DNA from: Acidiphilium sp. 37-60-79
GTDB lineage: Bacteria; Pseudomonadota; Alphaproteobacteria; Acetobacterales; Acetobacteraceae
Length of the DNA: 42,016 bases
Direction: 5' to 3'
Assembly: GCA_002279355.1 (NCBI GenBank)
Contig: NCBV01000016.1
Location: forward strand, 1 to 42,016
This document shows, piece after piece, positions 8,548 to 28,477 of the stretch (within the stretch, counting starts at the first letter, position 1; every line of letters begins with the position of its first letter). A program made the position numbers and the translations under genes. The notes beneath the pieces were generated by a model. That model did not search any database, was not told the origin of the DNA, and saw nothing but the letters and a program-made list of their open reading frames with translations.

Positions 8548-8565
8548 TAGATCAATATTGATCTA
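8548..8565. promoter_or_regulatory. 18-bp perfect palindrome between convergent genes
   Basis: TAGATCAAT and its exact reverse complement ATTGATCTA abut at 8548-8565, between the end of the second DUF3857 gene and the SDR. The right end coincides with the SDR stop codon (8563-8565 on the minus strand). It is AT-rich with no following T run, so a weak bidirectional terminator or a protein-binding site are both possible. Confidence 0.35.
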
Positions 8566-9306
8566 GCTGGTGAGAAAGCCGCCATCCACCGGGATGATGG
8601 TGCCGGTGATGAAAGCGGCGCGATCGGACGCCAGAAACACCGCGAGTGCCGCCGTGTCATCCGGCTCGGCGAGACGCCCGATCGGGATGCGCCGCAAAAT
8701 TGCTGCCTGCATAGCAGGATCGAGCTGTGCAACGGTCATGGCCGTGGCGGTGACGGCAGGGGCAATGGCATTGACCGTTATGCCAGCGGGGCCAAGCTCG
8801 CGGGCAAGCCCCATGGTGAGTGCCGCGACGCCCGCTTTGGTCACGCCATAGAGCACATTGCCGAGCGCACCGCCGCCGCGAAAGGCCGATACGGAAGCGA
8901 TATTAATAATCCGCCCGCTTTTTCGCGCTGACATCGGCCCGATCACCGCGCGCGCGCAATGCAACACGCCACGTAGATTGACCTGCTCGACGGCGTCCCA
9001 ATCCTCCGGGGTCGACGCGGATATCGGTCCAGTTTTCAAAATGCCAGCGCTGGTGACTAAAATATCCAAAGCACCTTTCGCCAAAATCGTTTGCATACCG
9101 GCATCAACCGAAGCCGGGTCGGTGACATCCATGGTGAGGGCCTGCATGGTGCGGTTTCCCGCGACCGCCGCTGCGCCAGCCTCTGGCGAGCGATCGGCGC
9201 AATGGACAATCACCCCTTCAGCGGCGAGTGCATGCGCGACGGCGCGGCCAATGCCTGAACCAGCGCCGGTGACCAAAGCCACGCGCCCTTCGAGCCCGAA
9301 TTGCAT
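8563..9306 (-). CDS. SDR-family NAD(P)-dependent dehydrogenase
   Basis: This 247-residue classical short-chain dehydrogenase/reductase has the Rossmann glycine motif TGAGSGIG (residues about 12-19), the catalytic Ser in 'INIASVSAF', the YxxxK pair in 'YGVTKAG', and the C-terminal 'ITGTIIPVDGGF' typical of the family. It oxidises an alcohol or reduces a ketone in the cytoplasm. The start at 9306 (MQFGLEGRVALVTG) sits one base after the stop of the BKACE gene, so it is the last gene of the biotin carboxylase-carboxyltransferase-BKACE-SDR operon. Context suggests it either makes the ketone that enters the carboxylation route or reduces a product. The longer frame up to 9522 would overlap BKACE and is rejected. 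Confidence 0.88.
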   Translation of the reverse strand: MQFGLEGRVALVTGAGSGIGRAVAHALAAEGVIVHCADRSPEAGAAAVAGNRTMQALTMDVTDPASVDAGMQTILAKGALDILVTSAGILKTGPISASTPEDWDAVEQVNLRGVLHCARAVIGPMSARKSGRIINIASVSAFRGGGALGNVLYGVTKAGVAALTMGLARELGPAGITVNAIAPAVTATAMTVAQLDPAMQAAILRRIPIGRLAEPDDTAALAVFLASDRAAFITGTIIPVDGGFLTS

Positions 9307-9307
9307 A

Positions 9308-10138
9308 TCAAGCGGCCGCGAGGCCGAGGATGCGGCGCGCCTCCTCGGCGGTTGCGGGACGCCGACCATAGCAAGCCGCGATCTCGACCATTTGCGTGAC
9401 CAACTCGGCATTGCTCGCAGCGAGCCGGGTGCCATCGAAGCGCAAATTATCTTCAAGTCCAGTGCGCACATGACCGCCTTCGGCGATGCACCAGCGCGCC
9501 ACCTCGGCTTGCCACCGGCCAATCCCCGCAGCCTTCCAGGTTGCCGTGGGCATCAGAGCGCGCAATTCGGCGAGGAGAAAATTAAATATTTCCCGGCGCA
9601 CCGGCAAGGCATTGCGCACGCCGAGCACAAATTGCACATGCGGGTGCGGCGCCAGCAGCCCTTGATCGGCGAGTGCTTTGGCGTTGTAGAGCATGGCGAG
9701 ATCAAACACCTCGATTTCGGGTTTCACATCATTATCGAGCATCGATTGCGCGAGGCCGGTGACGAAATCGGGGGGGTTGTCATATACTTGGGTTGGAAAA
9801 TTGGTGGAGCCGGTGGCCAACGATGCCATATCCGGGCGAAGCGGAATACAGGCTGCCCGCTCCGCTAACGACCGGCCCCGACCGCCGGTGGAGAATTGCA
9901 CGATCATTGACGGACAATGGCGACGCACCCCTTCATGCACGGCGGCAAACAAGGCCGGGTCCGAGCCGGGCGATTCATCGGGATTGCGTGCATGGATATG
10001 CGCCAGCGTGGCGCCGGCCTCGAAGGCTTGATGGATAGATTCGATTTGTTCCGCAGGGGAAATTGGCACCGCCGGGTTATCGGCCTTGCGAGCGACGGCG
10101 CCATTGATCGCCACAGTGATGATGACGGGTTCGGTCAT
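9308..10138 (-). CDS. Beta-keto acid cleavage enzyme (BKACE / DUF849, Kce-like)
   Basis: This 276-residue TIM-barrel metalloenzyme has the family zinc ligands: His47 and His49 in 'AHIHARN' and Glu229 in 'GGHVRTGLEDNLRF' (Kce uses H46, H48 and E230). It also has the 'QFSTGGRG' loop. BKACEs react a beta-keto acid with acetyl-CoA, giving acetoacetate and the shortened acyl-CoA. Known substrates include 3-keto-5-aminohexanoate and dehydrocarnitine, and side-chain preference varies widely. GGGAG lies about 8 bases before the ATG at 10138. It sits between a biotin-dependent carboxyltransferase and an SDR in one operon. That suggests its beta-keto acid is made by carboxylating a ketone, and proximity to sauS suggests the acyl-CoA could be sulfoacetyl-CoA. 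The substrate itself is inference. Confidence 0.9.
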   Translation of the reverse strand: MTEPVIITVAINGAVARKADNPAVPISPAEQIESIHQAFEAGATLAHIHARNPDESPGSDPALFAAVHEGVRRHCPSMIVQFSTGGRGRSLAERAACIPLRPDMASLATGSTNFPTQVYDNPPDFVTGLAQSMLDNDVKPEIEVFDLAMLYNAKALADQGLLAPHPHVQFVLGVRNALPVRREIFNFLLAELRALMPTATWKAAGIGRWQAEVARWCIAEGGHVRTGLEDNLRFDGTRLAASNAELVTQMVEIAACYGRRPATAEEARRILGLAAA

Positions 10139-10157
10139 GCGCGCTCTCCCAGCAAGG

Positions 10158-11606
10158 TCAGTGTTTCTCGATAAAGTGAAATGAGGTGATATCCGGTCGG
10201 CGGGCGATTTCGCGCACCAGCGTGAGTAACGGCGTCCCGGCGAGCGGGTAATCCGTGGAGATCGGCCCTGCATCACGCAAAGCGCTGATTTCCGGCGCTG
10301 CGTAAAAGGCGGCGAGTAGCAGATCATCATCCGAGCGAAATGGCCCATGCGCGGCGCGCACCGAAGGGATGCCAGGCTCCAGCAGCGCACCGGGGCGTTC
10401 GGTCACCGGCACGGCGCCGCGCGCGACCCGGTCGAGCACGTTCGGGTCGATCGGCCCGGCAACCTCGCCATAATAGCCCAGCACATATTTGCGCACCTCG
10501 TCTGGCACTGTGGCGTAGCGCTCACGGCCCATGACGTTGAGCACCGATTGGGTGACCACGAATTGCGCGAACGGGCTGACGATGATCGGGTAGCCCAGCT
10601 CGCAGCGCACGCGACCGGCTTCTTCGAGGATTTCGCTCAGACGATGCTCAATGCCGATGGTTTTGAGTTGGGAGCGCAGGTTGGAAATCATCCCGCCGGG
10701 CATTTGATGTGCGTAATGAAATTCATCATACTCGGCAATTACGCCGAGTGGTTTGCCTTCGCGGGCGGCAATATAGGCAATTCGCTCCGCCGCTGCTTCG
10801 ACCAGCGCCAGATCGACGCCTGGATCATGCCCGAGGCGGGTTAGATTGCGCGCGACCGACTCGGTGGCGGGATGCGAGGCGCCATTGGCCAACGGCGAGG
10901 TGGCGGTGTGAACAACATCGACGCCAAGGGCGACGGCGCGGATGGCGGTGGCGGGGGCAAGGCCGGTGAGGCAATGGCTGTGCAAATGCAGGGGCAACGT
11001 GCCGCACGCCGCACGGATCTCCGGGACCAGCGTGGCGACCCGTTCGGGCGTGAGCAATCCGCTGGGGTCTTTCAGATAGATGGCGTCAACGCCGAGCGCG
11101 ACCAGTTCACGCACCTTGCCAACATAATAGGCGTCGGTATGGACCGGGCTGAGTGTGTAGACGATTCCAGCGGCGATATAGAGCCCGACTTGGCGGGCGG
11201 CGCGCACCGGCACTTCGAGGTTGCGGATATCGTTCAGCGCGTCATAGGGGGTGTGATAGCGCATGCCTTGCGCGCGAATGCGTTCGGCGGTTAGTGCGAC
11301 GATGTCATCGGGAAAAAATTCGAAGGTGAACAGGCTCTGCCCGCGCGTCATCACCGCAAGCGGCGTTTCGGTGACCCATTCGCTGAGAATCCGCATCCGC
11401 TCCCACGGATTTTCCCGCAGATAACGCACGCACACGTCAAATACTGCGCCGCCCACCAGATCGATCGCCTCGAACCCGGCGCGGTCGAGCAGCGGAGCAA
11501 TTTCACGCATCATGCCGGTGGTCATGCGCGTGGCCCACAAGCATTGGTGGCCATCGCGGAGCGTGACATCGAGCAGACGGACATTGCGGCGAGGGGAGAT
11601 TGTCAT
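10158..11606 (-). CDS. Biotin-dependent carboxyltransferase subunit (pyruvate carboxylase / OadA type)
   Basis: This 482-residue protein begins with the HMGL-like TIM barrel typical of pyruvate carboxylase and oxaloacetate decarboxylase alpha: 'LLDVTLRDGHQCLWATRM' with metal ligand Asp18, Lys179 in 'YLKDPSGLLTP' (the carboxylated Lys), and His209/His211 in 'HLHSHCLTG'. A PYC_OADA region follows from about residue 300. There is no fused biotinyl domain, so it must use a separate BCCP, as in 5S- or OadA-like split enzymes. The region that in pyruvate carboxylase carries the catalytic Thr (VTP-S/T-S-K/Q) reads VSPFAQFV here, with Ser344 at the Thr position, so the acceptor may not be pyruvate. 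The start at 11606 overlaps the biotin carboxylase stop (ATGA). Confidence 0.85.
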   Translation of the reverse strand: MTISPRRNVRLLDVTLRDGHQCLWATRMTTGMMREIAPLLDRAGFEAIDLVGGAVFDVCVRYLRENPWERMRILSEWVTETPLAVMTRGQSLFTFEFFPDDIVALTAERIRAQGMRYHTPYDALNDIRNLEVPVRAARQVGLYIAAGIVYTLSPVHTDAYYVGKVRELVALGVDAIYLKDPSGLLTPERVATLVPEIRAACGTLPLHLHSHCLTGLAPATAIRAVALGVDVVHTATSPLANGASHPATESVARNLTRLGHDPGVDLALVEAAAERIAYIAAREGKPLGVIAEYDEFHYAHQMPGGMISNLRSQLKTIGIEHRLSEILEEAGRVRCELGYPIIVSPFAQFVVTQSVLNVMGRERYATVPDEVRKYVLGYYGEVAGPIDPNVLDRVARGAVPVTERPGALLEPGIPSVRAAHGPFRSDDDLLLAAFYAAPEISALRDAGPISTDYPLAGTPLLTLVREIARRPDITSFHFIEKH

Positions 11607-12943
11607 CGGGCCATATCCTGTTCGATCCAACGCGTATGGATCGCGGCGGTGCGAAACGCCTCGGTTGTTAGCAAATCGGCGTGAAACGGTAAGGTGGTTG
11701 GCACGCCGCGCACCTCAAAGCGCGCGATGGCCTCCTGCGCTGCAGCAATCGCTTCGGTGCGGCTCGGTTTGCGGATGATCAACTTGCCGAGTAGGGAATC
11801 GTAATACGGTGAGACCCGCCAGCCGGGATAGACGTGACTATCCACCCTGATCCCCTCGCCTCGTGGCGGCTTCCAGGCCGAGATTAGGCCCGGCGCCGGG
11901 CGAAACCCGTCATAGGCATCCTCGGCATTGATCCGAAACTCGATGGCGACGCCATGCGGTTCGCCGGGTTGGCTGATCGAGAGCGGTGCGCCGGCGGCGA
12001 CGCGGAATTGTTCGGCAACCAGATCGGTGCCAGTGAGCATTTCGGTGACCGGGTGTTCGACTTGGATGCGGGTATTCATTTCGATGAAATAGGCGCGGTC
12101 GGATTCGGGATCGTAGATGAACTCGACCGTGCCCGCGCCCTCATAGCCCAGACCGCGCGCGAGCGCCTCGGCGGCTTGGGTGATCTCAAGGCGACGGGCC
12201 GCGGGCAGGATGGGCGATGGGGCTTCTTCGATCAGCTTTTGGTGGCGGCGCTGCACGCTGCAATCACGCTCCCACAAATGCACGACATTGCCGTGCTGAT
12301 CCGCAAAAATTTGCACCTCGACATGGCGGACATTGCGAAAAAACCGCTCCAAATAAATCTCGGCGTTGCCGAAAGCTGCTTTAGCTTCGGCCGAGGCTTG
12401 CATGAAACAGGTGGCGAAGCTGCCGATATCCTCGGCGATCCGCATGCCACGACCGCCGCCACCAGCACTGGCTTTGAGCAGAATTGGAAACCCGATTTGC
12501 TCGGCGGCCACCTGTGCTGGCTCGACCGCAGCAAAGCCATGCTCGGAGCCTGGCACGATGGGCATACCAAGCGCGGCGGCAGTGCGGCGAGCTTGGGCTT
12601 TATCACCCATCAAGGTAATGATTTCCGGCGATGGGCCGATGAAGGTGAGCCCGGCGGTGCGGCATTGCTCAGCGAATTCAGCATTCTCGGAGAGAAAGCC
12701 GTAACCCGGATAGACCGCGTCACAGCCGCTGGCGAGTGCCGCGGTGATCAGGCCGGGGCCATTCAAATAGCTTTGTGCGGCGGCGGGCGGGCCGATACAG
12801 ACCGAATGATCAGCGGCCCAGACATGCGGCAACGCTGCATCCGGCGGTGTATAGCCCGCGACTGTTTCCAATCCGAGTGTTCGGCAAACCCGCACCGCGC
12901 GAAGCGCGATCTCGCCACGGTTGGCGATGAAGACCCTGATCAA
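11603..12943 (-). CDS. Biotin carboxylase subunit (AccC-like)
   Basis: This 446-residue ATP-grasp enzyme has the usual biotin carboxylase landmarks: '[12 protein letters not shown]' at the N-terminus, the glycine-rich ATP loop [10 protein letters not shown], '[28 protein letters not shown]', and the signature '[20 protein letters not shown]'. It carboxylates biotin on BCCP with ATP and bicarbonate. The length equals that of AccC of acetyl-CoA carboxylase. The gene starts with TTG at 12943, supported by GGGGAG about 8 bases upstream on the minus strand; no ATG is better placed. It is the first gene of the carboxyltransferase-BKACE-SDR operon and diverges from the BCCP gene across a 109-bp interval. 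No AccA/AccD is near, so it likely serves the adjacent carboxyltransferase and not fatty-acid synthesis. Confidence 0.92.
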   Translation of the reverse strand: [446 protein letters not shown]

Positions 12944-12986
12944 GGCGTTTGCTCCCCTAGTCCAGCCGGTAGGCTATTCTGAAAAA

Positions 12987-13006
12987 AATCATCTTGCAAG
13001 ATGATT
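12987..13006. promoter_or_regulatory. 20-bp perfect palindrome in the biotin carboxylase/BCCP divergent promoter
   Basis: AATCATCTTG (12987-12996) and CAAGATGATT (12997-13006) are exact reverse complements with no spacer. They lie centrally between the divergent biotin carboxylase and BCCP genes. TTGCAA at its centre could act as a -35 element for both directions, though the matching -10 elements are weak. The site is well placed to co-regulate all subunits of the carboxylase. GntR or related dimeric regulators bind such sites, but which regulator acts here is unknown. Confidence 0.55.
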
Positions 13007-13052
13007 CATATTGCTGTCTGATAACTGAAAGCCAAACGGAGGAACTTCGCCC

Positions 13053-13529
13053 ATGTTGCGATACGAAGACGTCGCTGAACTGGTTCGTATTATCGATAGC
13101 TCATCGTGCGCTGAATTTGTGCTTGATACGGCAGAGTTGAAGCTGACCCTCCGGCGTCATGGCGCCGTTGGTTCTGTAGCCAATGGGCCGCCACCAAGCC
13201 CGCAGCCGGGCATAGTTAGTACGCCTGCTGCGCCGAGCCCGGCGGCCGCCGCGACACCGGCGCACGCCGCTGCACCGATGCAGGCTGGTCATCAGCTGGT
13301 CGAAGCACCGATGATCGGCACGTTCTATGGAGCGCCCGCACCCGGACAGCCCACATTCGTGCAGCCGGGCGGCCGGGTGGCGGCGGGCGATAAACTCTGT
13401 TTGATCGAGGTGATGAAGCTTTATACAACGATTTTTGCGCCGGTCGCCGGAACCGTTCGCGAGATTTGCGCACGCGATGGTGAACTCGTGGAGTATGGTC
13501 AGGTACTATTCGTAATCGAGCCAGGATAG
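13053..13529 (+). CDS. Biotin carboxyl carrier protein (AccB-like)
   Basis: This 158-residue protein begins with an AccB-type N-terminal region (residues about 1-40, 'YEDVAELVRIIDSSSCAEFVLDTAELKLTLRR'). A Pro/Ala-rich linker follows at about 45-85, and the C-terminal biotinyl domain carries the lysine motif IEVMKLYTTI in place of the common EAMKMMN. Biotin is attached to the Lys. It carries carboxybiotin between the biotin carboxylase and the carboxyltransferase encoded on the opposite strand. GGAGG precedes the ATG at 13053. Being transcribed away from its partners is unusual, because accB and accC are normally adjacent on the same strand. The shared palindrome at 12987-13006 probably keeps expression matched. 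Confidence 0.92.
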   Translation: MLRYEDVAELVRIIDSSSCAEFVLDTAELKLTLRRHGAVGSVANGPPPSPQPGIVSTPAAPSPAAAATPAHAAAPMQAGHQLVEAPMIGTFYGAPAPGQPTFVQPGGRVAAGDKLCLIEVMKLYTTIFAPVAGTVREICARDGELVEYGQVLFVIEPG

Positions 13530-13541
13530 CGCGACGATGGG

Positions 13542-14279
13542 CTAACCGAGTAAAACCGACAGCAATCCGAGCACCCCCGATGCGGCCATGAGCATTAGAA
13601 AGAACGCGTTGAACGCTTCGGCTGATATGTATTTGACGGCGCGAATTCCGATGACCATGCCGATACCGACGCAGGGAGCGAGCCATAGGCTGGTGGTTAG
13701 CCATGCGGTGCGCGCGAGACCTGACAGGATGGCGACCAAAATCGCTACCAGAAAGCTAGCGAGATTGAATGACAGGAGGATGGTTCGGCTGTGATGGACA
13801 TTGCGGCGCTGCAGCGCGACCGTCATCGCCGGAACCGGGCCGCCCATGCCGGTGCAGCCATTGAGCACACCGCCGATCAGCCCCGCGACCGCCAATGGCG
13901 TCAAGCCATCGGGCAGGCGGAGGGGCAAGCGGGCGGCGCGGAGCATTGCGACCCCGATGGCCAGCGCCGCAATCATCAATTTGATGGTGCGCGCATCCAG
14001 AACGCCGAGTAACAGCAGGCCAACCGGCGTGCCGATGAGGGCGGCCACGCCGATGGTGAGGGCGGCGCGCTGCGGCACGGCGCGGCGTGCATCGGCGAGC
14101 ACGACCACGCTGACCAGCGCGCCCAGAACCATGGTTTGAAACACAACTTGGCGTGGGCTGCCCGACAGGATTGCGAAGACCGGAGCAAACACCAACCCAA
14201 AGCCAAAACCGGCAAAGCCCGTGACTACGCCCCCGAGTAGTGCCGCGAGGCCCGCGCTGAGGATGAGCCAATCAGACAT
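13542..14279 (-). CDS. TauE/SafE-family sulfite exporter
   Basis: This 245-residue integral membrane protein has seven to eight hydrophobic segments and the two-fold repeated architecture of TauE/SafE proteins: 'GFAGFGFGLVFAPVFAIL' in the first half and 'GVLNGCTGMGGPVPAMTVAL' in the second. In sulfonate-degrading bacteria this family exports the sulfite released by sulfoacetaldehyde acetyltransferase. Because xsc is in the same window, sulfite or sulfite-like anion export is the best call, although family members also move other organosulfur or organic anions. It is the last gene of the minus-strand block that begins with the IclR regulator, 122 bp after the MFS gene, and converges on the BCCP gene with only 12 bp between. 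Confidence 0.82.
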   Translation of the reverse strand: MSDWLILSAGLAALLGGVVTGFAGFGFGLVFAPVFAILSGSPRQVVFQTMVLGALVSVVVLADARRAVPQRAALTIGVAALIGTPVGLLLLGVLDARTIKLMIAALAIGVAMLRAARLPLRLPDGLTPLAVAGLIGGVLNGCTGMGGPVPAMTVALQRRNVHHSRTILLSFNLASFLVAILVAILSGLARTAWLTTSLWLAPCVGIGMVIGIRAVKYISAEAFNAFFLMLMAASGVLGLLSVLLG

Positions 14280-14401: not shown

Positions 14402-15853
14402 TTACCGATCAAGCTTTATTCCGGCACTATCGAGACCGCCTACCGGCGCGCCGCGGTAAAGCGACAGGTCGGTGCCGGTTTCCTCGACGCTACGGCCAGA
14501 TGTTTGAAAACCAAGCAACATGATTGGAATGATACTCACGAAGGTGAGTGACGCCAATAGGGTATAAAGTGAAGAGGACGTCATTTCGCTTGCGAGGATA
14601 GGGAACATAAAGACGAGCACCACGCCACCAAGAAAGCGAGTGATGCTTTCACCGATCATCGAGCCTGAAGCCCGCAAGCGGGTCGGGAATTGTTCCGCCA
14701 TATAGAGTTTCGCAAGCGGGAAGCCGGCATAGACGAACGCCCAGGTGACCATCGCGGCGATGATGACGCCCCAACGCGGCAGGGGCTGACCAAGCGCAAT
14801 GGTGCCGAGCGCCGCAACCGTCATCACCCCAACGAGACCCCAACGACGGCTTATCCGATCGCCCATGAGGCCGGCGACCGCATTCGAAATCACCGTTAGG
14901 AACAATAATCCTGATGTGTAGTAGAGCGCGTCGGTTTTTCCGGCTCCCATGCGGCTGAGAATGCTCGGTCCGTAAAGTGTGATCACATAGAACACGATGA
15001 AGGGGGAGAGCAGTGCTGCATACGACACGAAACACCGAATTAGGTAGGGCGGTTTTGCGAAATCGAGCAAAGACACACGCCGTGCGGCCGTGACTTCCAG
15101 TACGCGCAGCGAAGAGCGGTCGATCAAGTTTTCATCATGCGGCAAGTTGCTGACATTTTCCAGCCGCTCGACGAAGTTTCTGACCCTGTCAACCTGACCG
15201 ACTTTGAGCAGGAAGCGCGGCGATTCGGGCAGAAAAATGATGACGATTGGCATGATCAGAATGGTGGCACCGCCCAACATCAGCAGCACCCGCCACGCTT
15301 CGGAGTCGGGGATATGGCCGACAATCAGTGCGCCAGCCAGCGTGTTCAGACCATAGGCAAAGCCGAGCAAGGAATTCGACAGACCAACCGCCGTGCCACG
15401 GGCACGTTTATTCACAAATTCCGAGAGCAACAGGTAGGGAACCGGAAACACCGCCCCTTGGCCAAGGCCGGCGAGGAAGCGGCAGGCGACGAGTTCGGTG
15501 ATCGACTGGGAAAAGCTGGCGAGGAAAGTGAATATGCTGAAAACCACGATCCCGCCGAGTAGGGTTGTTTTGCGGCCAAATCGATCAGCAATGCGCCCTG
15601 CTGGGAGCAAACCGACCACGATGCCGAACGTGCCCGCACTCGCAATCAGGCCGACCTGCTTGGGTGCAAGATGCCATGTTTTTTTGAGCAAAAACAGAAC
15701 GGGCGCAATGATTCCGATATCGAACGCTTCGAGAATCCAAACCAGACCGAGCAGGGCGATGAGTCCGATCACGGTTTTGTTGATTGGGATCCGGTCAAGT
15801 CGGGCCAGGAGGTTTTCCTGGACGATGAGATCTTGTTCGCTGATAGTAGCCAT
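14402..15853 (-). CDS. MFS transporter (sugar/organic-anion porter-like)
   Basis: This 483-residue protein has 12 predicted transmembrane segments and clear MFS signatures: 'GRIADRFGRKTTLLGG' after TM2, 'CRFLAGLGQGAVFPVPYLLLSEF' across TM4-TM5, and 'LPESPRFLLKVGQ' at the central loop as in sugar-porter and AAHS-type carriers. A second R-x-x-R motif occurs in 'GDRISRRWGL'. It probably imports an organic acid. Its position directly downstream of the CoA-ligase pair and sauS suggests sulfoacetate or a related sulfonate, comparable in role (not necessarily in sequence) to SauU of Cupriavidus. Substrate is inference. An 80-bp gap separates it from the upstream ligase alpha gene, consistent with the same operon or a short secondary promoter. 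Confidence 0.82.
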   Translation of the reverse strand: MATISEQDLIVQENLLARLDRIPINKTVIGLIALLGLVWILEAFDIGIIAPVLFLLKKTWHLAPKQVGLIASAGTFGIVVGLLPAGRIADRFGRKTTLLGGIVVFSIFTFLASFSQSITELVACRFLAGLGQGAVFPVPYLLLSEFVNKRARGTAVGLSNSLLGFAYGLNTLAGALIVGHIPDSEAWRVLLMLGGATILIMPIVIIFLPESPRFLLKVGQVDRVRNFVERLENVSNLPHDENLIDRSSLRVLEVTAARRVSLLDFAKPPYLIRCFVSYAALLSPFIVFYVITLYGPSILSRMGAGKTDALYYTSGLLFLTVISNAVAGLMGDRISRRWGLVGVMTVAALGTIALGQPLPRWGVIIAAMVTWAFVYAGFPLAKLYMAEQFPTRLRASGSMIGESITRFLGGVVLVFMFPILASEMTSSSLYTLLASLTFVSIIPIMLLGFQTSGRSVEETGTDLSLYRGAPVGGLDSAGIKLDR

Positions 15854-15933: not shown

Positions 15934-16836
15934 TCAGGCTGGCATTTTTGCCAGCGCTGGTAGACGCGCCGCCAACGCGCCGACAATGCCGTGCGGGGTG
16001 TCAGCGACGGCAACGTCTGCCGCCTCCAACGCCGCGCGTTTGCTCGGATAACTACCGCCGGAGCCGGCAACGATGGCGCCAGCATGGCCCATTTTACGGC
16101 CCGGCGGGGCGGCGCGTCCGGCGATGAACGCAACGACTGGTTTGCCCATGGTCCTTGCATAATCCGCCGCTTCCTCTTCCATGGTTCCGCCGATTTCGCC
16201 GACCAGAACAACGGCATCGGTGCGTTCATCGCGATCAAGCGCGATCAGCGCATCGAGGCTTGTGGTGCCGATCATCGGATCGCCGCCGATGCCAATGAAG
16301 CTCGATTGACCAAAGCCACCCCGGGTAAGATTTAAGCAGACCAGTGTGCCGAGACTGCCGCTGCGCGAAATCACCCCGACCCGTCCCGGACTGAAAACCT
16401 TGTTGTTGTGACCGGGCATGATGCCGACGAACGCCTCGCCGGGGGTGACGAGGCCTGCGGTGTTGGGACCGACGATGCGGCAGCCGCGCGCGTCCGAGGC
16501 TGAAAACACATCGAGCATGTCATGAGCAGGCACATGTTCAGTCAGCATGACTAACCCCCCTACCCCGGCGTCGATCACATCCAGTGCGGCATCGCGCACG
16601 CCGGCGGGCGGGACGAACATGACCGCGACATCGGCCTGCATGGACCGCACGACGGCGTTGACCGAGGCGAAGACGGGCAAGCCGAGATGGGTCTCACCGG
16701 CGCGCTTTGGGTTCACCCCGGCGACGATTTGGGTGCCGACCTCGCGCATCCGCTCAGTCCAGAACGTGCCTTGACCGCCGGTCATGCCAATGACGACGAT
16801 GCGGTCCGAACGGCGGATAATGGGAAATGTGCTCAT
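15934..16836 (-). CDS. Succinyl-CoA-synthetase-like ligase, alpha subunit (candidate sulfoacetate-CoA ligase)
   Basis: This 300-residue protein has the SucD layout: an N-terminal CoA-binding Rossmann domain ('[18 protein letters not shown]', '[13 protein letters not shown]') and a ligase domain with the phospho-histidine His251 in '[18 protein letters not shown]'. With its beta partner it forms an NDP-forming acyl-CoA synthetase. A housekeeping TCA enzyme is possible. However, the pair lies between sauS and transporters, and SucCD-like ADP-forming sulfoacetate-CoA ligases (SauCD) working with SauS have been described in Bilophila, so sulfoacetate is the favoured substrate. Malate-CoA ligase is a third option. 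The ATG at 16836 overlaps the beta-subunit stop (ATGA), giving translational coupling for stoichiometric assembly. Confidence 0.85.
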
Positions 16837-17960
16837 TGTGCTGCCTCAATCGCCGCGCGCACGGCGTCTTCCATCAGATCAAACGGTTCAATGCCAAAAG
16901 CGTCGCGCACCAACGCCACCGCTTCGTCAGAGCCGGTGCCGTGCACCGAGAAAAATACCGGCAAATCCGGCTCCAGCCGTTGCCACGCCTCGACCACGCC
17001 CCGTGCCATGACATCGGTGCGTGCGAAGGCGCCGCAGAAATTGACCACGAGCGCGCGAATTTCGGGCTTGGCGAGTAGCAACTCCAAAGCAGGTTCGGCT
17101 TTGGTGTAGGCATCGCCACCAATTTCAAGAAAATTGGCAGGTTTGCCACCCAGCACGCTGACTACATCCATGGTGGTCATGGTGAGACCTGCGCCGTTAG
17201 CGAGGATGCCCACCGGGCCGTCCAACTCGATGAATTTGAGCCCCACTTCGCTGGCCCGCCGTTCAAGCGAGGTCGACGGATCGGGCGCGGCGGCGGCAGC
17301 CAAAGCCGATTGACGGTAGGCCGCGCCATCATCGAGGACAAACTTACAGTCCAGGGCTGCGATATTTCCATCCGCAAGCTGCACCAGCGGATTAATCTCG
17401 ATCAGTTCAGCGTCGGTTTCGCGATAGCGCCGATACATCGCGACCAAGATGCGCGCTATTTCGGCGTGTGCTGTCCCTAACGCTAGACCATCGAGCATCT
17501 CCATGGCATCCGCCTCGTCAAACTGATCGATGGTGCGCACCCAATGTTTGCGCAGCATCTCTGGGCGCGATTCAGCAATTTCTTCGATATCCATGCCGCC
17601 TTCGGTGGAGAACAACACCAGCGAGCAGCGTTCCCGCGGTGCGTGCAGCACGGCCGCGTAATATTCATGGATAATCGCTGCTTGCGCCTCGATCATCACG
17701 CTTGCAACCGGATGCCCGGCAATATTCATGCCGAGAATGCGCTCGGCCGCGTCTCTCGCCTCGGCGGGCGTGGCTGCAAGACGGATGCCGCCCGCTTTGC
17801 CGCGTTTGCCGGTTGGCACTTGGGCTTTGACCACGCAAGGGCCGATCCGCTCGGCAGCAGCAGCGGCTTCGGCGACCGTGTGGCACAGTGCGCCATCGAG
17901 AAGCCGGATATTGGCCGGTGCGAGCACGAGGCGCTTCGCATCATATTCCAGGAGATTCAT
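16833..17960 (-). CDS. Succinyl-CoA-synthetase-like ligase, beta subunit (ATP-grasp)
   Basis: This 375-residue protein has the SucC layout: an N-terminal ATP-grasp domain ('MNLLEYDAKRL', 'CVVKAQVPTGKRGKAGGIRLA', 'ELIEINPLVQLADGNIAALDCKFVLDD') and a C-terminal flavodoxin-like ligase domain ('GPVGILANGAGLTMTTMD', 'NFLEIGGDAYT'). It binds the nucleotide and the carboxylate. The start at 17960 has GAGGAT about 7 bases upstream. The longer frame to 18035 would overlap sauS heavily and lacks family similarity. The start is 11 bases beyond the sauS stop, and the gene overlaps the alpha gene by 4 bases, so sauS, beta and alpha are one transcription unit. Confidence 0.87.
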   Translation of the reverse strand: MNLLEYDAKRLVLAPANIRLLDGALCHTVAEAAAAAERIGPCVVKAQVPTGKRGKAGGIRLAATPAEARDAAERILGMNIAGHPVASVMIEAQAAIIHEYYAAVLHAPRERCSLVLFSTEGGMDIEEIAESRPEMLRKHWVRTIDQFDEADAMEMLDGLALGTAHAEIARILVAMYRRYRETDAELIEINPLVQLADGNIAALDCKFVLDDGAAYRQSALAAAAAPDPSTSLERRASEVGLKFIELDGPVGILANGAGLTMTTMDVVSVLGGKPANFLEIGGDAYTKAEPALELLLAKPEIRALVVNFCGAFARTDVMARGVVEAWQRLEPDLPVFFSVHGTGSDEAVALVRDAFGIEPFDLMEDAVRAAIEAAQ

Positions 17961-17970
17961 GCTGCTATCC

Positions 17971-19395
17971 TCACTTACCGAATTTTGACCAATAGGGACC
18001 GAACAACGCGTCTTCGCTGGGGCGATCTTCGGCAATCGGCACCACCAGATGAGTGATGTTGATGAAATGCCGATAGTTTAGATTTTCGCTGATCGAGTTT
18101 TTTTGCCAACTGCCACACCCCATGCTGAGGGTGAATTCTAATCCACTGTCGAAACCACCACCATTGCCGAATGTATGGGCAAAATTGACCAATACCCGCA
18201 CGACATCGAGCGTTTCCGCGAGGTGCCGGGCGCGTTCGGGGCGGGTTGTGTGCAGGCCACAGGAATGGCCGCGTCCTTGGTGGGCGAGAATGTCACGCAC
18301 GACACCCGTTGCGGCCTCGAGGTCCGGGGCGCGATAGATAGCGAGGACCAGCGATAATTTCTCGCCCGAGAACGGATGCGCGGGGCCGATGCCGGTTTCT
18401 TCGACCATGAAAAACCGCGCCTGACGCGCAGCTTCGGGCAAAGCGAATGCCTCGGCGAGGATTGCAGGATCGCGCGCGATGAGGGTGCGGTTCAGCTTGC
18501 CACCTTGCCAAAGCAGCGATTCCACCCGCTTGGCCTCGTCGGCGGTGCAGAGATAGCCGCCGGCGCGTTCCAAGGCAGCGATGGCGGCTGGATAGACCTC
18601 ATCGACGATGACTAACGCGTTTTCCGACGAGCAGGAGGTGGAATTATCGAAGGTTTTCGATGCGGTGATTTTGCGAGCCGCATCATCGAGGTCTGCGGTT
18701 TCATCGATAATCACCGGCACATTGCCAGCACCAACGCCGATGGCGGGGGTGCCGCTGCGATAGGCGCGGCGGACATTGTCCTGCGATCCGGTAACCACCA
18801 CCAGATCGACGGCTGCCATCAAGGCGTCGGTCGCGTGTTTTGAAGCCGGCGGCGGCAATATCTGCACCAAATCCTCGGGGGCGCCGATGCGCGCGAGTTC
18901 GCGGCGCATCTCGGCGACGGTTTCAGTGGTTGTCTGCATGCCCGAAGGGGATGGCGCGATGATGATGGCGTTGCGGCCCTTGATGGCCATCATCGCCTTG
19001 TTAACGGCGGTGGCGGATGGGTTGGTCGAGGGGGTTACCGCGCCGACCACACCGATCGGTTTGGCAAATTTAACCAGGCCGCGTGCGGGGATTTCCTCGA
19101 TCACGCCGACGGTTTTGGCGCGCAGCAGATCGCGCAGGGTGCCGAACGTTTTGCGCTGATTTTTGATGATTTTATCAGCGACATTGCCGAGGCCAGTATC
19201 CTGCACCGCCAGCGAGGCTAGTCGTTCGGCGCGATCGGGGCGGTAGAGCGACCAGGCAAGGGCGCGCACGAGGTCATCGGTGCGGTCCTGATCAGCATCC
19301 GCGATGAGGGCCATGGCGCTGCGCGCACGAGCGACCATGGTCATTACCATATCAGCCGTCGCGTCACGCTCAGTTAGTCGTGCTGTTTGATCCAT
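17971..19395 (-). CDS. sauS: CoA-acylating sulfoacetaldehyde dehydrogenase (SauS-like)
   Basis: This 474-residue aldehyde dehydrogenase is of the CoA-acylating (AdhE-N/EutE-like) class, with 'GVVGAVTPSTNPSATAVNKAM' for cofactor binding, the catalytic Cys255 in 'FDNSTSCSSENALVI', and the C-terminal 'LNYRHFINITHLVVPI'. Sequence character matches the SauS group of Cupriavidus necator, which interconverts sulfoacetyl-CoA and sulfoacetaldehyde with NAD(P)H. Acetaldehyde or other short aldehydes are alternatives. Its neighbours are a SucCD-like ligase, a phosphotransacetylase and, elsewhere in the window, xsc, which together complete a sulfoacetate-to-acetyl-CoA route. AAGGAG lies about 12 bases before the ATG at 19395, a slightly long spacing. 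Confidence 0.8.
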   Translation of the reverse strand: MDQTARLTERDATADMVMTMVARARSAMALIADADQDRTDDLVRALAWSLYRPDRAERLASLAVQDTGLGNVADKIIKNQRKTFGTLRDLLRAKTVGVIEEIPARGLVKFAKPIGVVGAVTPSTNPSATAVNKAMMAIKGRNAIIIAPSPSGMQTTTETVAEMRRELARIGAPEDLVQILPPPASKHATDALMAAVDLVVVTGSQDNVRRAYRSGTPAIGVGAGNVPVIIDETADLDDAARKITASKTFDNSTSCSSENALVIVDEVYPAAIAALERAGGYLCTADEAKRVESLLWQGGKLNRTLIARDPAILAEAFALPEAARQARFFMVEETGIGPAHPFSGEKLSLVLAIYRAPDLEAATGVVRDILAHQGRGHSCGLHTTRPERARHLAETLDVVRVLVNFAHTFGNGGGFDSGLEFTLSMGCGSWQKNSISENLNYRHFINITHLVVPIAEDRPSEDALFGPYWSKFGK

Positions 19396-19434: not shown

Positions 19435-20433
19435 TTAAAAGGCGTTTGCCGAACCCTCCGACGTGGTGGGCGCAGACAGCAGACAGGCAAGTGCAATCGA
19501 GGCGAGTTTGGCTTCGACCGGATCGGCGCGCGAGGTAAGGACGATCGGCACCGCTGCACCGAGCACGACGCCAATCGCTGTCGCGTGCAGCAGGTGCACC
19601 AGCACCTTGAACAAAGCGTTGCCGGTTTCGATGTTCGGGACGACCAGAATATCGGCACGTCCCGCGACGGGATCGTTGGTCAATCCTTTCAGCGCCGCCG
19701 ATGCGGGTGAAAGAGCGACATCGAGTGCTAACGGGCCGGAGATGCTACAACCTTTACTTGTCGCCTCCTCCCTGAAGGATGCGGCAAACGCGTCCGCCGC
19801 GATCGATGAAGGCATCGAGCGATTGACGGTTTCCGTGGCCGATAGCATGGCGATGCGCGGATGATCGAGGCCGAGCACGCTCGCCACCTCGATCGCGTGG
19901 CGCACGATGAATGTCATGGTGCGTGCGTCGGGCGCGACATTCAGCGCGGCATCAGTGATCAGTATATCGCGGGCGGTTCCGGGCATATGCATGGCGAAAA
20001 TATGCGATAGCCGCGCCGCCCGGCGCAGGCCGCGCGAGCCATCGAGCACGGCGCGCATCAGCGTGTCGGTGTGCAAATGGCCTTTCATCAAGATCTGCGC
20101 TTCACCCGCTGCAATTAGATCGGCGGCGATTTCGGCGGCTTGGTCCTCACCCGCCGTCGCGACGACGCGATAGGGGGCGCCATGCTGACCCAGGCCGGCG
20201 AGGGATGCCGCGATGGCCGATGGCGTGCCCACCAGGATTGGCGTGATCATCCCGAACGCAGCGGCCCAATGCACCGCCTGCAACACATCGGCAGAATCCG
20301 CTGCGGCGACCACCATCGGTTGTGGGCCGCGCGCCGCAGCACGCAGTAATAGGCCGGGTGGGCAGGCATAACGCCCACTTGCGTTCGCCTGGTTTGGCTC
20401 AAGAGTTGTCAACGAAGGCGTAGGGTTTTGCAT
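19435..20433 (-). CDS. pta: Phosphate acetyltransferase (phosphate acetyl/butyryltransferase family)
   Basis: This 332-residue single-domain protein belongs to the PTA/PTB family. It has an N-terminal 'DSADVLQAVHWAAAFGMITPILVG' region, the conserved 'AQILMKGHLHTDTLMRAVL' strand-helix and 'IAMLSATETVN' in the middle, and 'RADILVVPNIETGNALFKVLVHL' near the C-terminus. It converts acetyl phosphate and CoA to acetyl-CoA and phosphate. Short Pta proteins of this kind accompany xsc in taurine-degradation clusters, because Xsc makes acetyl phosphate. Here it sits beside sauS although xsc is 18 kb away. It lies 18 bp after the IclR gene and 39 bp before sauS in the same direction, so it is probably part of that operon. 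Butyryl or other acyl specificity cannot be excluded. Confidence 0.82.
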   Translation of the reverse strand: MQNPTPSLTTLEPNQANASGRYACPPGLLLRAAARGPQPMVVAAADSADVLQAVHWAAAFGMITPILVGTPSAIAASLAGLGQHGAPYRVVATAGEDQAAEIAADLIAAGEAQILMKGHLHTDTLMRAVLDGSRGLRRAARLSHIFAMHMPGTARDILITDAALNVAPDARTMTFIVRHAIEVASVLGLDHPRIAMLSATETVNRSMPSSIAADAFAASFREEATSKGCSISGPLALDVALSPASAALKGLTNDPVAGRADILVVPNIETGNALFKVLVHLLHATAIGVVLGAAVPIVLTSRADPVEAKLASIALACLLSAPTTSEGSANAF

Positions 20434-20451: not shown

Positions 20452-21390
20452 TCAATCGGACTGGCGGGATGTGACGAAACTATCGGTCAGCGCCCGTGCT
20501 GCAGCGATCAGCGCCACGCGGTGCCGATACGCATCCGCCACTGGCATTCGCGCGGCGGGGGCCTGGATCGCGACGCCGGCGGTGATTTCGCCACGGGCGT
20601 TGAACACCGGTGCGGCGATGCAGACGACGCCGGCGAGATATTCCTCACGATCGACCGACAGGCGTTCGTGGCGAATTCGCACCAGCTCATCCTCAAGGGC
20701 GGCGGGGGTGGTCAGCGTGTGTGCGGTGTGGGGCACGAAATCGAGACGTTTGAGTAAGGCCGCGCGTTTGGCATCAGGCAAGAAAGCCAGGAACAGCTTG
20801 CCAATGGCGGTGCAGTGTAAGGGCACCCGCGAGCCGATATGAAAATTCAGCCGCAACGGCCAGCGGGTGGCTTCGACACGGTCGAAATAGACGATCTGGC
20901 TGCCTTCGAGTGTGCCGATATTGCAGGTTTCGCCGACCTCATCGACCAGCCCTTGCAAGATTTGCCGCCGTGGGGCGTATTGCACCGAGTAGCGCAAAAT
21001 ATCGAACGCGAGATCGTTCAGGCGCGGGCCGACGGAGATTCGCCTCGAGGAAAAAGGCCGATAGAGAAAGCCTAGAGCTTCGAATTGCTCGATCATGCGA
21101 TAGACGGTGGGTTTGGGGAGATCGAGGTGGTCGGCGATTTCCGCTGGCAGCACGGGACGGCCAATGCGCACAACATATTCCAAAACGCCGAAGGAGCGCG
21201 CAAACACGCTGGTACCGCCTTTGCCCAAGGCATCAGCGTTGTTTGCCGCGATTTGGATATCAACGGCCTCAAGCTCGCCGTCCTGGTCCAGTGGCCGGGA
21301 ATTATCAAGCTTTTCCGCGCGACGCTTGGCGCTGCGGGTTGGGCTGCGCGGGGTAGGTTTTTCGCTGGACGTCATACGCACCTCAGTCAT
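20452..21390 (-). CDS. IclR-family transcriptional regulator
   Basis: This 312-residue regulator starts with a charged extension of about 60 residues. A winged helix-turn-helix follows ('SFGVLEYVVRIGRPVLPAEIADHLDLPKPTVYRMIEQFEALGFL', in part), then the IclR effector domain with 'CNIGTLEGSQIVYFDRVEA', 'PLHCTAIGKLFLAFL' and 'CIAAPVFNARGEITAGVAIQ'. It diverges from the MHS permease gene and heads the pta-sauS block, so it likely controls both sides. IseR of isethionate clusters is recalled as having the same kind of context. Two in-frame ATGs are possible: 21390, and 21375, which has GAGGTG immediately upstream and may be the true start. Its ligand is unknown; a sulfonate or its CoA ester is plausible. 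Confidence 0.88.
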   Translation of the reverse strand: MTEVRMTSSEKPTPRSPTRSAKRRAEKLDNSRPLDQDGELEAVDIQIAANNADALGKGGTSVFARSFGVLEYVVRIGRPVLPAEIADHLDLPKPTVYRMIEQFEALGFLYRPFSSRRISVGPRLNDLAFDILRYSVQYAPRRQILQGLVDEVGETCNIGTLEGSQIVYFDRVEATRWPLRLNFHIGSRVPLHCTAIGKLFLAFLPDAKRAALLKRLDFVPHTAHTLTTPAALEDELVRIRHERLSVDREEYLAGVVCIAAPVFNARGEITAGVAIQAPAARMPVADAYRHRVALIAAARALTDSFVTSRQSD

Positions 21391-21594: not shown

Positions 21595-22917
21595 ATGTCG
21601 ACATCGACACAAGAAACGCGCAGCCTTGCTCTGATCGTGTTTGCGAGCACGCTAGGCACCACCATCGAATGGTATGATTTTTTCCTCTACGGTGTGCTCA
21701 CGCCGATCGTGTTGAATCACGTATTTTTCCCAAATCTCTCGCCTGCGCTGGGCACGATTGCCGCTTACACCACCTTTGCCGTCGGGTTCGTTTCGCGGCC
21801 GATCGGCGGCATCATTTTCGGCCATTTCGGCGATCGAATCGGCCGTAAAACAATCCTGGTATTGACGTTGCTGATCATGGGCGGCGCGACGTTTTTGATT
21901 GGCTTACTGCCGGGAGCCGCGACGATTGGTGTTGCCGCGCCGTTATTATTGCTGTTTTTGCGGATTTTACAGGGCATCGGCATCGGCGGTGAATGGGGCG
22001 GCGCCGTGCTGATGGCGATTGAGCATGCGCCACCTGAACAGCGGAGCTTTTTTGGCAGTTGGCCGCAGTTGGGTGTGCCGCTTGGGCTCATGTCGAGTGC
22101 GGGCGTTGTGGCGTTGCTGAATTATTTGCCCAATAGCGCGTTTTTGCTTTGGGGCTGGCGCGTGGCTTTTATGATCAGTGCGCTACTTGTGGTTGTTGGC
22201 ATTTTCGTCCGTCTGCGGATTACGGAGACGCCGGACTTCTTGCGGGTGCAGTCAGAGGATAAGATTGTTGCAGTGCCGGTGTTGGAAATGATCCGGACGG
22301 CGCCACGATCGGTATTGCTGACCCTCGGCGCGCGCTATGTTGAAGGGGCATGCTTTAATGTGTTTGGCGTGTTCATTATCGCATACGTGGTCAACAGCTT
22401 GCATCTCACCCGCGGCTTTGCCTTGCTCGCCGTTGTGTTGTCCTCGGCGTTTATGCTGCCGTTTATTCTGATCGCGGGGCGTCTCGCTGATCGGTATGGG
22501 ATGCGGCGGGTGTTTGCAACCGGGGCGTTGCTGATTGCGGTCAGTTCGATCGCGTCATTCGCCCTCATGCAGGCCTATGGTCGGACCGACCATTGGGTGG
22601 TGCTGGTTGCGATCATCGTGCCGTTCTCGTTATTCTATCCGTTGGTCTATGGCACTGAATCCTCGCTGTTTGCTAGCCAGTTTGATGCCAAGGTGCGCTA
22701 TACCGGCGTGTCGTTTGCCTATCAGGTGTCTGGTATTTATGCGAGCGGGCTGACCCCGTTAATCGCTTCGGCTCTGCTCACCTATGATCATGGCGCGCCT
22801 TGGTATGTCGTGGTTTATATGATTGTGGTCGGGTTAATCAGTTTTGGATCGGTTATGGCCATGCGGTTCAAAAATCCGGCGCAATTGGAGCCGGTGACGG
22901 CGGTTCATTATCAATGA
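21595..22917 (+). CDS. MFS permease, metabolite:H+ symporter (MHS) type
   Basis: This 440-residue, 12-TM carrier has the MHS-family hallmarks: 'LGTTIEWYDFFLYG' in TM1, 'RPIGGIIFGHFGDRIGRKTILV' after TM2, 'LQGIGIGGEWGGAVLM' in TM4 and 'ITETPDFLRVQ' after TM6. MHS carriers import organic acids and zwitterions (shikimate, alpha-ketoglutarate, proline/betaine) with protons. GGAGGGG lies a few bases before the ATG at 21595. Its stop overlaps the start of the GMC dehydrogenase (ATGA), so substrate import and first oxidation are coupled. The IclR-permease-GMC arrangement resembles isethionate clusters (iseR, iseU, iseJ), making a hydroxyalkanesulfonate the favoured substrate, though this is contextual. 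Confidence 0.85.
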   Translation: MSTSTQETRSLALIVFASTLGTTIEWYDFFLYGVLTPIVLNHVFFPNLSPALGTIAAYTTFAVGFVSRPIGGIIFGHFGDRIGRKTILVLTLLIMGGATFLIGLLPGAATIGVAAPLLLLFLRILQGIGIGGEWGGAVLMAIEHAPPEQRSFFGSWPQLGVPLGLMSSAGVVALLNYLPNSAFLLWGWRVAFMISALLVVVGIFVRLRITETPDFLRVQSEDKIVAVPVLEMIRTAPRSVLLTLGARYVEGACFNVFGVFIIAYVVNSLHLTRGFALLAVVLSSAFMLPFILIAGRLADRYGMRRVFATGALLIAVSSIASFALMQAYGRTDHWVVLVAIIVPFSLFYPLVYGTESSLFASQFDAKVRYTGVSFAYQVSGIYASGLTPLIASALLTYDHGAPWYVVVYMIVVGLISFGSVMAMRFKNPAQLEPVTAVHYQ

Positions 22918-24563: not shown

Positions 24564-24608
24564 CGCGTGCTCGCCAACCTTTTTTCCATTCAAGACAGGA
24601 GAGACCCC

Positions 24609-25790: not shown

Positions 25791-26517
25791 GGATATCCAT
25801 TGCTTGACGTTTGAGATCGAGAAAGCCGGGCTCAAGCGACATATCCCAATGACGCGGCCGCATGAGGGGAACGGTTGTTTCGAGGGCGATCTGTCCTGGA
25901 CGGGCGCTCATCACCACCAGACGATCTGCTAACAAAATAGCTTCATCGATATCGTGGGTGATGAAAACGACCGTTGCTTTGATCCGGTCCCACAAATCGA
26001 GCAGGAATTGCTGCATGGTATGGCGCGTTTGGGCATCAAGCGCGCCGAAAGGTTCGTCCATTAACAAGACCCGTGGCGCCATCACCAGCGCGCGCGCAAT
26101 CGCCACGCGCTGCTGCATACCGCCTGATAATTCATAGGGGCGATGTTGCTCGAAGCCGCGCAGGCCGATGATCTCGATCAGTTCATCGACCCGGCGCCAA
26201 TCGATCCCCCGTGCGGCGGATTGCATGCGCAAGCCAAACGCGATGTTATCGCGCAAAGACAGCCAAGGATACAGCCCTGGTTGCTGAAACACCACGACTC
26301 GATCCGGACCTGGCTTGGTCACCTTGATGCCATCGAGCATAAGCCGACCCCGCGTTGGTGACGAGAGGCCGGCGATCATGTTGAGCAAGGTCGATTTGCC
26401 ACAGCCTGATGATCCCAGGATCGTCACGAAGGTACCATCTTCGATGGTCAATGAAACATCATCAAGCGCGTGGAATGCGCCGAAATCCTTGCTGACATGA
26501 TCAATCACGATTGGCAT
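25780..26517 (-). CDS. ABC transporter ATP-binding protein, NitT/TauT family (system 1)
   Basis: This 245-residue ATPase has Walker A (GSSGCGKST), the Q-loop ('VFQQPGLYPWLS'), signature LSGGMQQRVAIARAL, Walker B (VLLMDEPFGALD) and the switch His ('FITHDIDEA'). It energises import of an oxyanion-like substrate (sulfonate, nitrate or similar) together with the permease and binding protein encoded immediately upstream (27599-28462 and 26529-27551). Its C-terminus is encoded in the 11-bp overlap with the convergent amidase. Substrate cannot be read from the ATPase itself; the sulfonate island context argues for an organosulfonate. Confidence 0.9.
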   Translation of the reverse strand: MPIVIDHVSKDFGAFHALDDVSLTIEDGTFVTILGSSGCGKSTLLNMIAGLSSPTRGRLMLDGIKVTKPGPDRVVVFQQPGLYPWLSLRDNIAFGLRMQSAARGIDWRRVDELIEIIGLRGFEQHRPYELSGGMQQRVAIARALVMAPRVLLMDEPFGALDAQTRHTMQQFLLDLWDRIKATVVFITHDIDEAILLADRLVVMSARPGQIALETTVPLMRPRHWDMSLEPGFLDLKRQAMDILSA

Positions 26518-26528
26518 TCAGGCAGATC

Positions 26529-27551: not shown

Positions 27552-27598
27552 TGGATTTCCTTTCCGGTTACCAGACAAAATATCATTACGATATCAAT

Positions 27599-28462: not shown

Positions 28463-28477
28463 TGTCGCTCCGTTGAT

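Follow-up and report, generated by a model that had tools for sequence, protein, structure and literature searches.

SauRSTU is a sulfoacetate degradation set, and the routes to sulfoacetyl-CoA known to us lead either from sulfoacetate via a CoA ligase or from sulfoacetaldehyde via reversed SauS. The 42,016-nt contig of Acidiphilium sp. 37-60-79 analyzed here (the whole contig C68 of the 3.07-Mb genome, hereafter the window) encodes a putative biotin-dependent carboxylase next to an enzyme of the BKACE family, and for this module another entry is predicted, i.e., from a C3 ketone via carboxylase and BKACE. The window resembles the SauCD/SauT-SauS-Xsc-Pta system of sulfoacetate degradation in encoding SauS, Xsc, Pta, a SauCD-like ligase, an IclR-family regulator and an MFS transporter, with sulfoacetyl-CoA as the meeting point; SauCD and SauS of sulfoacetate degradation are dealt with in PMC12890257. 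We consider it moderately probable that the module serves the catabolism of a C3 sulfonate and joins the known sulfoacetate pathway at sulfoacetyl-CoA.

The enzymes of the module have relatives in several described systems. The acetone and acetophenone carboxylases (AcxABC, Apc) show a similar chemistry, the ATP-dependent carboxylation of a ketone at its methyl group, which yields a β-keto acid, and acetone carboxylase is described as working without biotin or another organic cofactor (PMC5543143). In contrast, the set in the window is predicted to be a biotin enzyme composed of an AccC-type biotin carboxylase subunit (BC), an AccB-type biotin carboxyl carrier protein (BCCP) and a carboxyltransferase (CT) of the pyruvate carboxylase (PC) type. 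This CT shares fold family and core residues with PC subunit B, OadA and transcarboxylase 5S, but it belongs to a distinct clade with substitutions around a kept Arg, lacks a fused BCCP and has a BKACE as frequent partner. The BKACE shares the zinc ligands and the E/R/D residues with the family members Kce and the 3-dehydrocarnitine and 3-oxoadipate enzymes and differs from Kce-type BKACEs by a Phe at the Tyr145 position and an Arg at the Ala86 position (both common to the whole NF053568 set compared), by its partner carboxylase and by the predicted sulfonated substrate. A further homologue is BsfD of flavophos biosynthesis (PMC12871164). Its substrate, 3-oxo-4-phosphonobutyrate, corresponds to 4-sulfoacetoacetate with a phosphonate in place of the sulfonate group, and the loop that follows strand 3 likewise contains a basic residue; BsfD does not cleave this substrate, while the BKACE of the window is predicted to cleave.

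The name sulfoacetone had no match in open-licence PMC papers, and the open-licence matches for related sulfonate names contained, by title and beginning of the abstract, no paper on catabolism; the nearest among the open-licence matches listed concerns the 3-hydroxypropanesulfonate isomer (PMC11489063). As none of the open-licence matches listed describes, again by title and beginning of the abstract, a biotin-dependent methyl-ketone carboxylase, such a carboxylation would be novel within the open-licence literature. If the prediction is true, the module would constitute an extra entry point to organosulfonate catabolism, would add biotin-dependent methyl-ketone carboxylation and would extend the BKACE family to a sulfonated substrate. 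The model also predicts sulfoacetone or 2-hydroxypropanesulfonate as growth substrate for carriers of the module, including Roseovarius lutimaris DSM 28463 and Amycolatopsis acididurans K13G38.

The carboxylase-BKACE module and its predicted reactions

The original prediction had placed an SDR, a BKACE, a PC-type CT, a BC and a BCCP side by side, four of them in one operon, and profile matches and intergenic distances bear this out. These genes, together with those that would act downstream of sulfoacetyl-CoA, are as follows:

8563-9306, minus strand: SDR-family dehydrogenase, candidate 2-hydroxypropane-1-sulfonate dehydrogenase (adh_short_C2, 190 bits)
9308-10138, minus strand: BKACE, predicted 4-sulfoacetoacetate:acetyl-CoA cleavage enzyme (PF05853, 307 bits; NF053568, 441 bits, cut-off 350)
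10158-11606, minus strand: CT of PC/OadA type, predicted CT subunit of a sulfoacetone carboxylase (PYC_OADA and HMGL-like domains)
11603-12943, minus strand: BC, AccC-type biotin carboxylase subunit (NF006367, 601 bits, cut-off 597)
13053-13529, plus strand: BCCP, divergent from the operon (TIGR00531, 119 bits, cut-off 115; biotin motif EVMKL)
17971-19395, minus strand: SauS, acylating sulfoacetaldehyde dehydrogenase, predicted consumer of sulfoacetyl-CoA (NF047625, 777 bits, cut-off 600)
19435-20433, minus strand: phosphate acetyl/butyryltransferase, Pta (profile match)
38237-40045, minus strand: Xsc, sulfoacetaldehyde acetyltransferase (TIGR03457, 951 bits, cut-off 676)

The start codon ATG of the CT lies over the stop codon of the BC with an overlap of 4 bases (ATGA), 19 nt separate CT and BKACE and 1 nt separates BKACE and SDR, which is why BC-CT-BKACE-SDR look like one minus-strand operon. 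BC and BCCP are divergent across 109 bp.

In the predicted route, BC would use ATP and bicarbonate to carboxylate the BCCP-bound biotin, and CT would pass the carboxyl group on to sulfoacetone (2-oxopropane-1-sulfonate) at its methyl carbon, so that 4-sulfoacetoacetate is formed. With acetyl-CoA, BKACE would form sulfoacetyl-CoA and acetoacetate; SauS would reduce sulfoacetyl-CoA to sulfoacetaldehyde, from which Xsc would produce sulfite and acetyl phosphate, the latter being turned into acetyl-CoA by Pta. Acetoacetate would be taken up by a 3-oxoacid CoA-transferase, and the genome has two CoA-transferase gene pairs, each including a 3-oxoacid CoA-transferase subunit A. Sulfoacetone would be supplied by the SDR via oxidation of 2-hydroxypropane-1-sulfonate. 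The substrates follow from reasoning backwards, as by BKACE chemistry the precursor of sulfoacetyl-CoA would be 4-sulfoacetoacetate and by PC-type chemistry the precursor of the latter would be sulfoacetone; sulfoacetone, 2-hydroxypropanesulfonate and the SDR step are thus chemical deductions. All reactions of the module are inferred, and this applies most to the identity of ketone and alcohol.

The CT scores 443 bits against NF006761, a domain model for pyruvate carboxylase subunit B (cut-off 402), which is the sole model it passes; it misses all PC, OadA and 5S equivalog cut-offs listed by a wide margin. Aligned to three solved references, it retains the Arg that precedes GQ, the D-HQ motif, the KD lysine and both His of HxH. 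We take this Arg and its surroundings to be the binders of the pyruvate carboxylate in PC, and D-HQ, the Lys of KD and the HxH metal ligands presumably have the same roles as in PC/OadA/5S enzymes. By profile and core residues the CT is a member of the PC/OadA/5S family, and few members of its clade deviate, e.g., L039 with DAPQ. Twenty columns that are invariant in the three solved relatives are altered in the window CT, and they are more than 85% conserved across 61 clade rows, which include some loci counted twice (e.g., L004 and L009). Among these changes RGQNLLGYRHY has become RGQSLFTFEFF and FRxFDAMND has become TxYDALND (TPYDALND in the window). The clade of the CT is distinct and combines such fixed changes with retained PC-type residues.

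These features also bear on the possibility that the CT is an ordinary anaplerotic PC and the BKACE unrelated to it, which we regard as very improbable. While the match to the PC subunit B domain model and the kept Arg, which presumably holds the pyruvate carboxylate in PC, would agree with an anaplerotic role, the fixed changes of the clade and the joint occurrence of CT and BKACE in 44 of 56 loci (see below) do not. Moreover, contig C33 of the same genome carries a 1172-aa open frame with an HMGL-like domain, which is read as a complete PC as judged on size and domain only, and this makes the window CT unlikely to be the anaplerotic enzyme of the cell.

Membership of the BKACE in the PF05853 family is supported by the profile match and by six key residues. 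The complete zinc site of the original prediction is present, with His, His and Glu aligned to positions 46, 48 and 230 of Kce, and the equivalents of E143, R226 and D231 are kept as well; we take the former three to be zinc ligands and the latter three to be catalytic residues. The Arg at the Kce Ala86 position and the Phe at the Kce Tyr145 position are invariant in 61 NF053568-type rows (10 and 37 CT-linked first copies, 11 without CT, and the PDB entries 3no5, 3fa5 and 3chv), and the Arg would suit an anionic side chain.

Recurrence of the module and its association with SauS

A scan for the CT in one genome per species, covering 84,980 species, yielded 62 loci, 56 of them with a CT of at least 50% identity. 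Within the fetched stretches of these 56 loci, which often end at contig ends, and counted by identity and coverage thresholds, 44 have a BKACE (at least 50% identity), 46 BCCP, 41 BC, 36 IclR, 11 SauS and 4 Xsc; the Pfam names were verified for L010 and L047 only. Carriers include metagenome-assembled genomes (MAGs) near the genome of the window, Bradyrhizobium, Azospirillum, Roseovarius, Burkholderiaceae, Amycolatopsis and, with CT but without BKACE, Rokubacteria MAGs; plasmid records contain four CTs, all below 60% identity. In Amycolatopsis acididurans (L037) SauS-SauC-SauD-MFS-BCCP-CT-BC-BKACE stand together with Xsc nearby, so both this species and the window have both entries, the SauCD-like ligase and the carboxylase module. 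Linkage to SauS and Xsc, as expected in the original prediction, is infrequent inside the locus.

The association with SauS is clearer across whole genomes than within CT loci. Counting a SauS where the NF047625 score exceeds the curated cut-off, 49 of 63 CT genomes possess the enzyme (45 of 54 in a first set, 4 of 9 further ones). The first search took 50 of the 62 CT loci; the second took all remaining ones (L019, L034, L035, L038, L039, L049, L056, L058, L062, L068 and L069) but L061, which is from the same organism as L058, and comprised 11 genomes, two of them already in the first set. Of the 14 misses, G299, G322, G325 and G334 contain only pieces of SauS, several at contig ends; the others are G321, G331, G341, G345, G348, G881, G884, G885, G887 and G888, and in G341, G345, G885 and G888 every CT is a distant one (40-48%).

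The comparison with genomes that have the same BKACE family was made possible by 11 of 240 genomes of the class, besides that of the window, that also pass the NF053568 cut-off and in which no CT was found within the 7.8-19 kb fetched around the BKACE. SauS occurs in 38 of 43 genomes with a BKACE in the CT locus and in 1 of these 11 (Fisher p 1.2e-6; this and the following Fisher values ignore kinship among genomes). Among 299 genomes of the window's order, 5 contain the CT (E 1e-80) and 8 contain SauS, which is present in 5/5 CT genomes versus 3/294 others (Fisher 2.9e-9), three of the five CT genomes belonging to one genus. For the family of Roseovarius sp. 217 (295 genomes, CT in 3 at E 1e-140, SauS in 44), the corresponding values are 3/3 versus 41/292 (Fisher p 0.003). 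The recurrent linkage to SauS in other genomes, on which the original prediction had been made to depend, was thus largely recovered. As judged by sequence, family membership, operon, catalytic residues, the distinct CT clade, the recurrence of the module and its association with SauS stand as observations.

Because many of the CT genomes come from organisms that degrade sulfoacetate anyway, such an association could partly mark life style, and it is the SauS copies inside the CT-BKACE cluster that argue for a direct link. Eight of the 11 SauS-bearing CT loci have neither SauC nor SauT. One of them, L016, was discarded as a ligase-free locus, its SauS being cut by the locus end with SauC/D following (L140), which leaves seven (L026, L034, L047, L055, L063, L066 and L067). 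SauS directly follows BKACE in four of these (L047, L055, L066, L067), where both are same-strand neighbours with 60-172 bases between the tblastn ends; in L026 the two are convergent neighbours, and in the Roseovarius loci L034 and L063 the ATG of SauS overlaps the CT stop (ATGA). No match to SauC, SauD, the SauT-like ligase or the ADP-forming ligase type of L047 was obtained in L026, L034, L063 and L066. Six of the seven genomes (G315, G317, G339, G343, G346, G347) have a second SauS, each adjoining an AMP ligase that shares 43-68% identity with that of L054 and is called SauT-like from its position, while G332 (L047) has a single SauS; this two-SauS pattern is seen in 6 of the 8 genomes with two SauS over the cut-off. 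In a tree of 52 SauS, the state of being CT-linked without SauC/SauT requires four changes (the tree contains one SauS per locus and omits nine repeat loci and SauS fragments; the SauS of G307, i.e., L016/L140, is absent). As a ligase-free SauS needs another source of its substrate and the adjoining BKACE makes an acyl-CoA, the module itself probably makes sulfoacetyl-CoA. That carboxylase and BKACE feed an acyl-CoA to SauS, as originally proposed, is strongly supported by the recurrence, the controlled co-occurrence and the ligase-free SauS inside the cluster.

Conflicting evidence and alternative substrates

Several observations weigh against the proposed sulfonate route. The first group concerns the BKACE. 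It passes NF053568, an equivalog named 3-oxoadipate:acetyl-CoA acetyltransferase, and in the BKACE tree the CT-linked enzymes do not form one clade. A single BKACE clade for the module was rejected, as L022, L025, L027, L034 and L063 (Roseovarius) fall into a second subclade near 3no5/3fa5/3chv, other Roseovarius loci lying outside of it; the tree omits 22 repeat loci and BKACE matches below 60% coverage (L009 and L028 among them), and among the BKACEs labelled as CT-linked in it are five distant second copies. A distant second BKACE, found near the CT in L022, L025, L027, L026 and L042, is 29-32% identical to that of the window and has a Tyr at position 145. The BKACE match in L133:3145-4008 (a record also represented by L004 and L009) is split in two, with starts offset by a distance not divisible by three, which may be an assembly error or a frameshift.

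The equivalog name would agree with a levulinate route, in which CT makes 3-oxoadipate from levulinate, BKACE gives succinyl-CoA and acetoacetate, and the sulfonate genes are chance neighbours, and the invariant Arg would also suit a carboxylate. However, succinyl-CoA needs no SauS, yet SauS accompanies CT and BKACE in the genome proportions given above and adjoins BKACE or CT in several lineages, while only 1 of the 11 genomes that have this BKACE family with no CT in its vicinity contains it. The genome context thus argues for a substrate other than 3-oxoadipate, and we judge the levulinate route to be improbable. Where the original prediction would have been contradicted by a BKACE clade with an established non-sulfonate substrate, the outcome is partial: the name points to 3-oxoadipate, and the family is broader than the CT-linked set.

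The second point is the residue at position 145. All BKACEs are said to contain a Tyr at this position of Kce, and a Phe there in BsfD goes with acetyl transfer and no cleavage (PMC12871164). The Tyr is absent from the window BKACE, and a Phe is found in all 61 rows compared, so that Tyr145 may not define the BKACE family. A BsfD-like BKACE would acetylate and decarboxylate the sulfonated β-keto acid, with the substrate of SauS coming only from a CoA ligase. The Phe shared with BsfD would be in line with this, as would a CoA ligase of another type less than 6 kb from SauS in three of the seven loci, i.e., an ADP-forming enzyme 3.3-5.1 kb away in L047, L055 and L067 (for the latter two seen in L152 and L119). 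As this L047-type ligase also neighbours SauS in G314 and G316, it may be a sulfoacetate ligase; each of these genomes carries a CT together with two SauS genes, both of which lie outside the CT cluster. On the other hand, all seven loci have SauS beside BKACE or CT without SauC/SauT and four lack any ligase type sought, NF053568, all compared rows of which have the Phe, bears the name of an acyl exchange that depends on acetyl-CoA, and BsfD is distant from the window BKACE (9zsc, 123 bits). We therefore hold a BsfD-like reaction to be highly unlikely. An L047-type ADP-forming CoA ligase, which might represent a third kind of sulfoacetate-CoA ligase, also adjoins SauS in L127 and L129 (from the genomes of L025 and L027).

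The third group concerns the context of the CT. For as many as 45 of the 56 CT loci the fetched stretch does not include a SauS, 12 loci have no BKACE, and the SDR (at least 45% identity to that of the window) is found in only 22. Since the window and its relatives have a full sulfoacetate operon anyway, co-occurrence by itself could simply reflect organisms that live on sulfonates in general, and SauS follows the CT partly without an NF053568 BKACE, since 7 of the 12 genomes whose CT locus has no BKACE contain it. Together with the many SauS loci of CT genomes that are complete sulfoacetate operons (SauC/D or SauT) apart from the CT, the CT loci without SauS or BKACE would suit a module that forms another acyl-CoA (acetone, hydroxyacetone and 2-oxopropylphosphonate being examples of a source) and that sulfonate degraders happen to carry. 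We consider this unlikely; the BKACE-SauS neighbours in four loci and the CT/SauS overlap in two speak against it, as do TauE/SafE-like genes in 19 of the 56 loci (18 detected by one query and L008 by the other) and, in 20 loci, a binding protein of the SsuA/TauA type (Pfam checked on two).

CT loci without BKACE and the surroundings of the module

A universal CT-BKACE partnership was rejected in view of the 12 loci without BKACE. Their genomes were searched for NF053568, to the exclusion of weaker BKACEs from other subfamilies, together with those of L058, L059 and L065, whose CT is more distant; only G331 of these 15 genomes has a match at E 1e-60, and none was found in 11 of the 12 BKACE-less CT genomes. 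An ADP-forming CoA ligase follows the CT in L023 (6445-8523) and L039 (11506-13626), and a thiolase and an AMP ligase lie near the CT in L056 (11512-14681). It is possible that in these three loci a ligase plus thiolase replaces BKACE as an alternative way to R-CO-CoA. We are evenly divided about the broader picture of a widespread, undescribed pathway in which a biotin-dependent methyl-ketone carboxylase acting on sulfoacetone and a BKACE would let a C3 sulfonate and CO2 end up as two acetyl-CoA and sulfite and in which some lineages swap BKACE for CoA ligase and thiolase. In Rokubacteria MAGs a LarA-type gene (Lar_N, lactate-racemase-like) follows the CT (L024:11465-12853, L038:9094-10488, and L062:7674-9080, the last identified on sequence only). 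No SauS was found in the genomes of these three loci, SDR and ABC uptake genes being present, and their CT module perhaps acts on another substrate.

Further genes were observed near CTs of other genomes. Beside the CT-BKACE cluster of L054 lies a gene of the histidinol dehydrogenase type (12335-13741; TIGR00069, 418 bits), which we take to be HpsN-like and which may hint at other C3 sulfonates. A Rieske oxygenase is located near the CT in L030 (6994-9259) and L039 (14599-16041; Pfam-checked in L030 only), and L030 also has a gene of the PEP-mutase/isocitrate-lyase type near the CT.

In the window, the remaining features around the operon are:

12987-13006, no strand: perfect 20-bp palindrome AATCATCTTGCAAGATGATT, candidate operator between the divergent BC and BCCP (sequence symmetry)
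13542-14279, minus strand: TauE/SafE-family exporter, possible sulfite exporter (PF01925, 83.5 bits, cut-off 32.6)
14402-15853, minus strand: MFS transporter adjoining the ligase genes (no equivalog cut-off reached)
15934-16836, minus strand: SauD-like CoA ligase alpha subunit (slightly below the succinate-CoA ligase equivalog cut-off; Sau name from context)
16833-18035, minus strand: SauC-like CoA ligase beta subunit (below equivalog cut-offs; Sau name from context)
20452-21390, minus strand: IclR-family regulator (no equivalog cut-off reached)

Exporter, MFS transporter, SauD/SauC-like ligase, SauS, Pta and IclR regulator are thus encoded upstream of the operon, mostly on the minus strand. 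With the SauS and Xsc equivalogs and a CoA ligase, which is named from context, the window has the members of a sulfoacetate degradation system. The palindrome is a single copy within the window at up to 3 mismatches and recurs at the equivalent place in the sister locus L008; by its symmetry and position it is likely the operator of the divergent BC and BCCP promoters. Between the sau genes and xsc (22800-37261) the window encodes a GMC dehydrogenase, an amidase, a DAO-type FAD oxidase, an amidohydrolase, two SsuA/TauA-type ABC transporters (below curated cut-offs) and a MocR regulator (above the PdxR cut-off), and this stretch looks like an island for uptake and degradation of amide- or amine-sulfonates.

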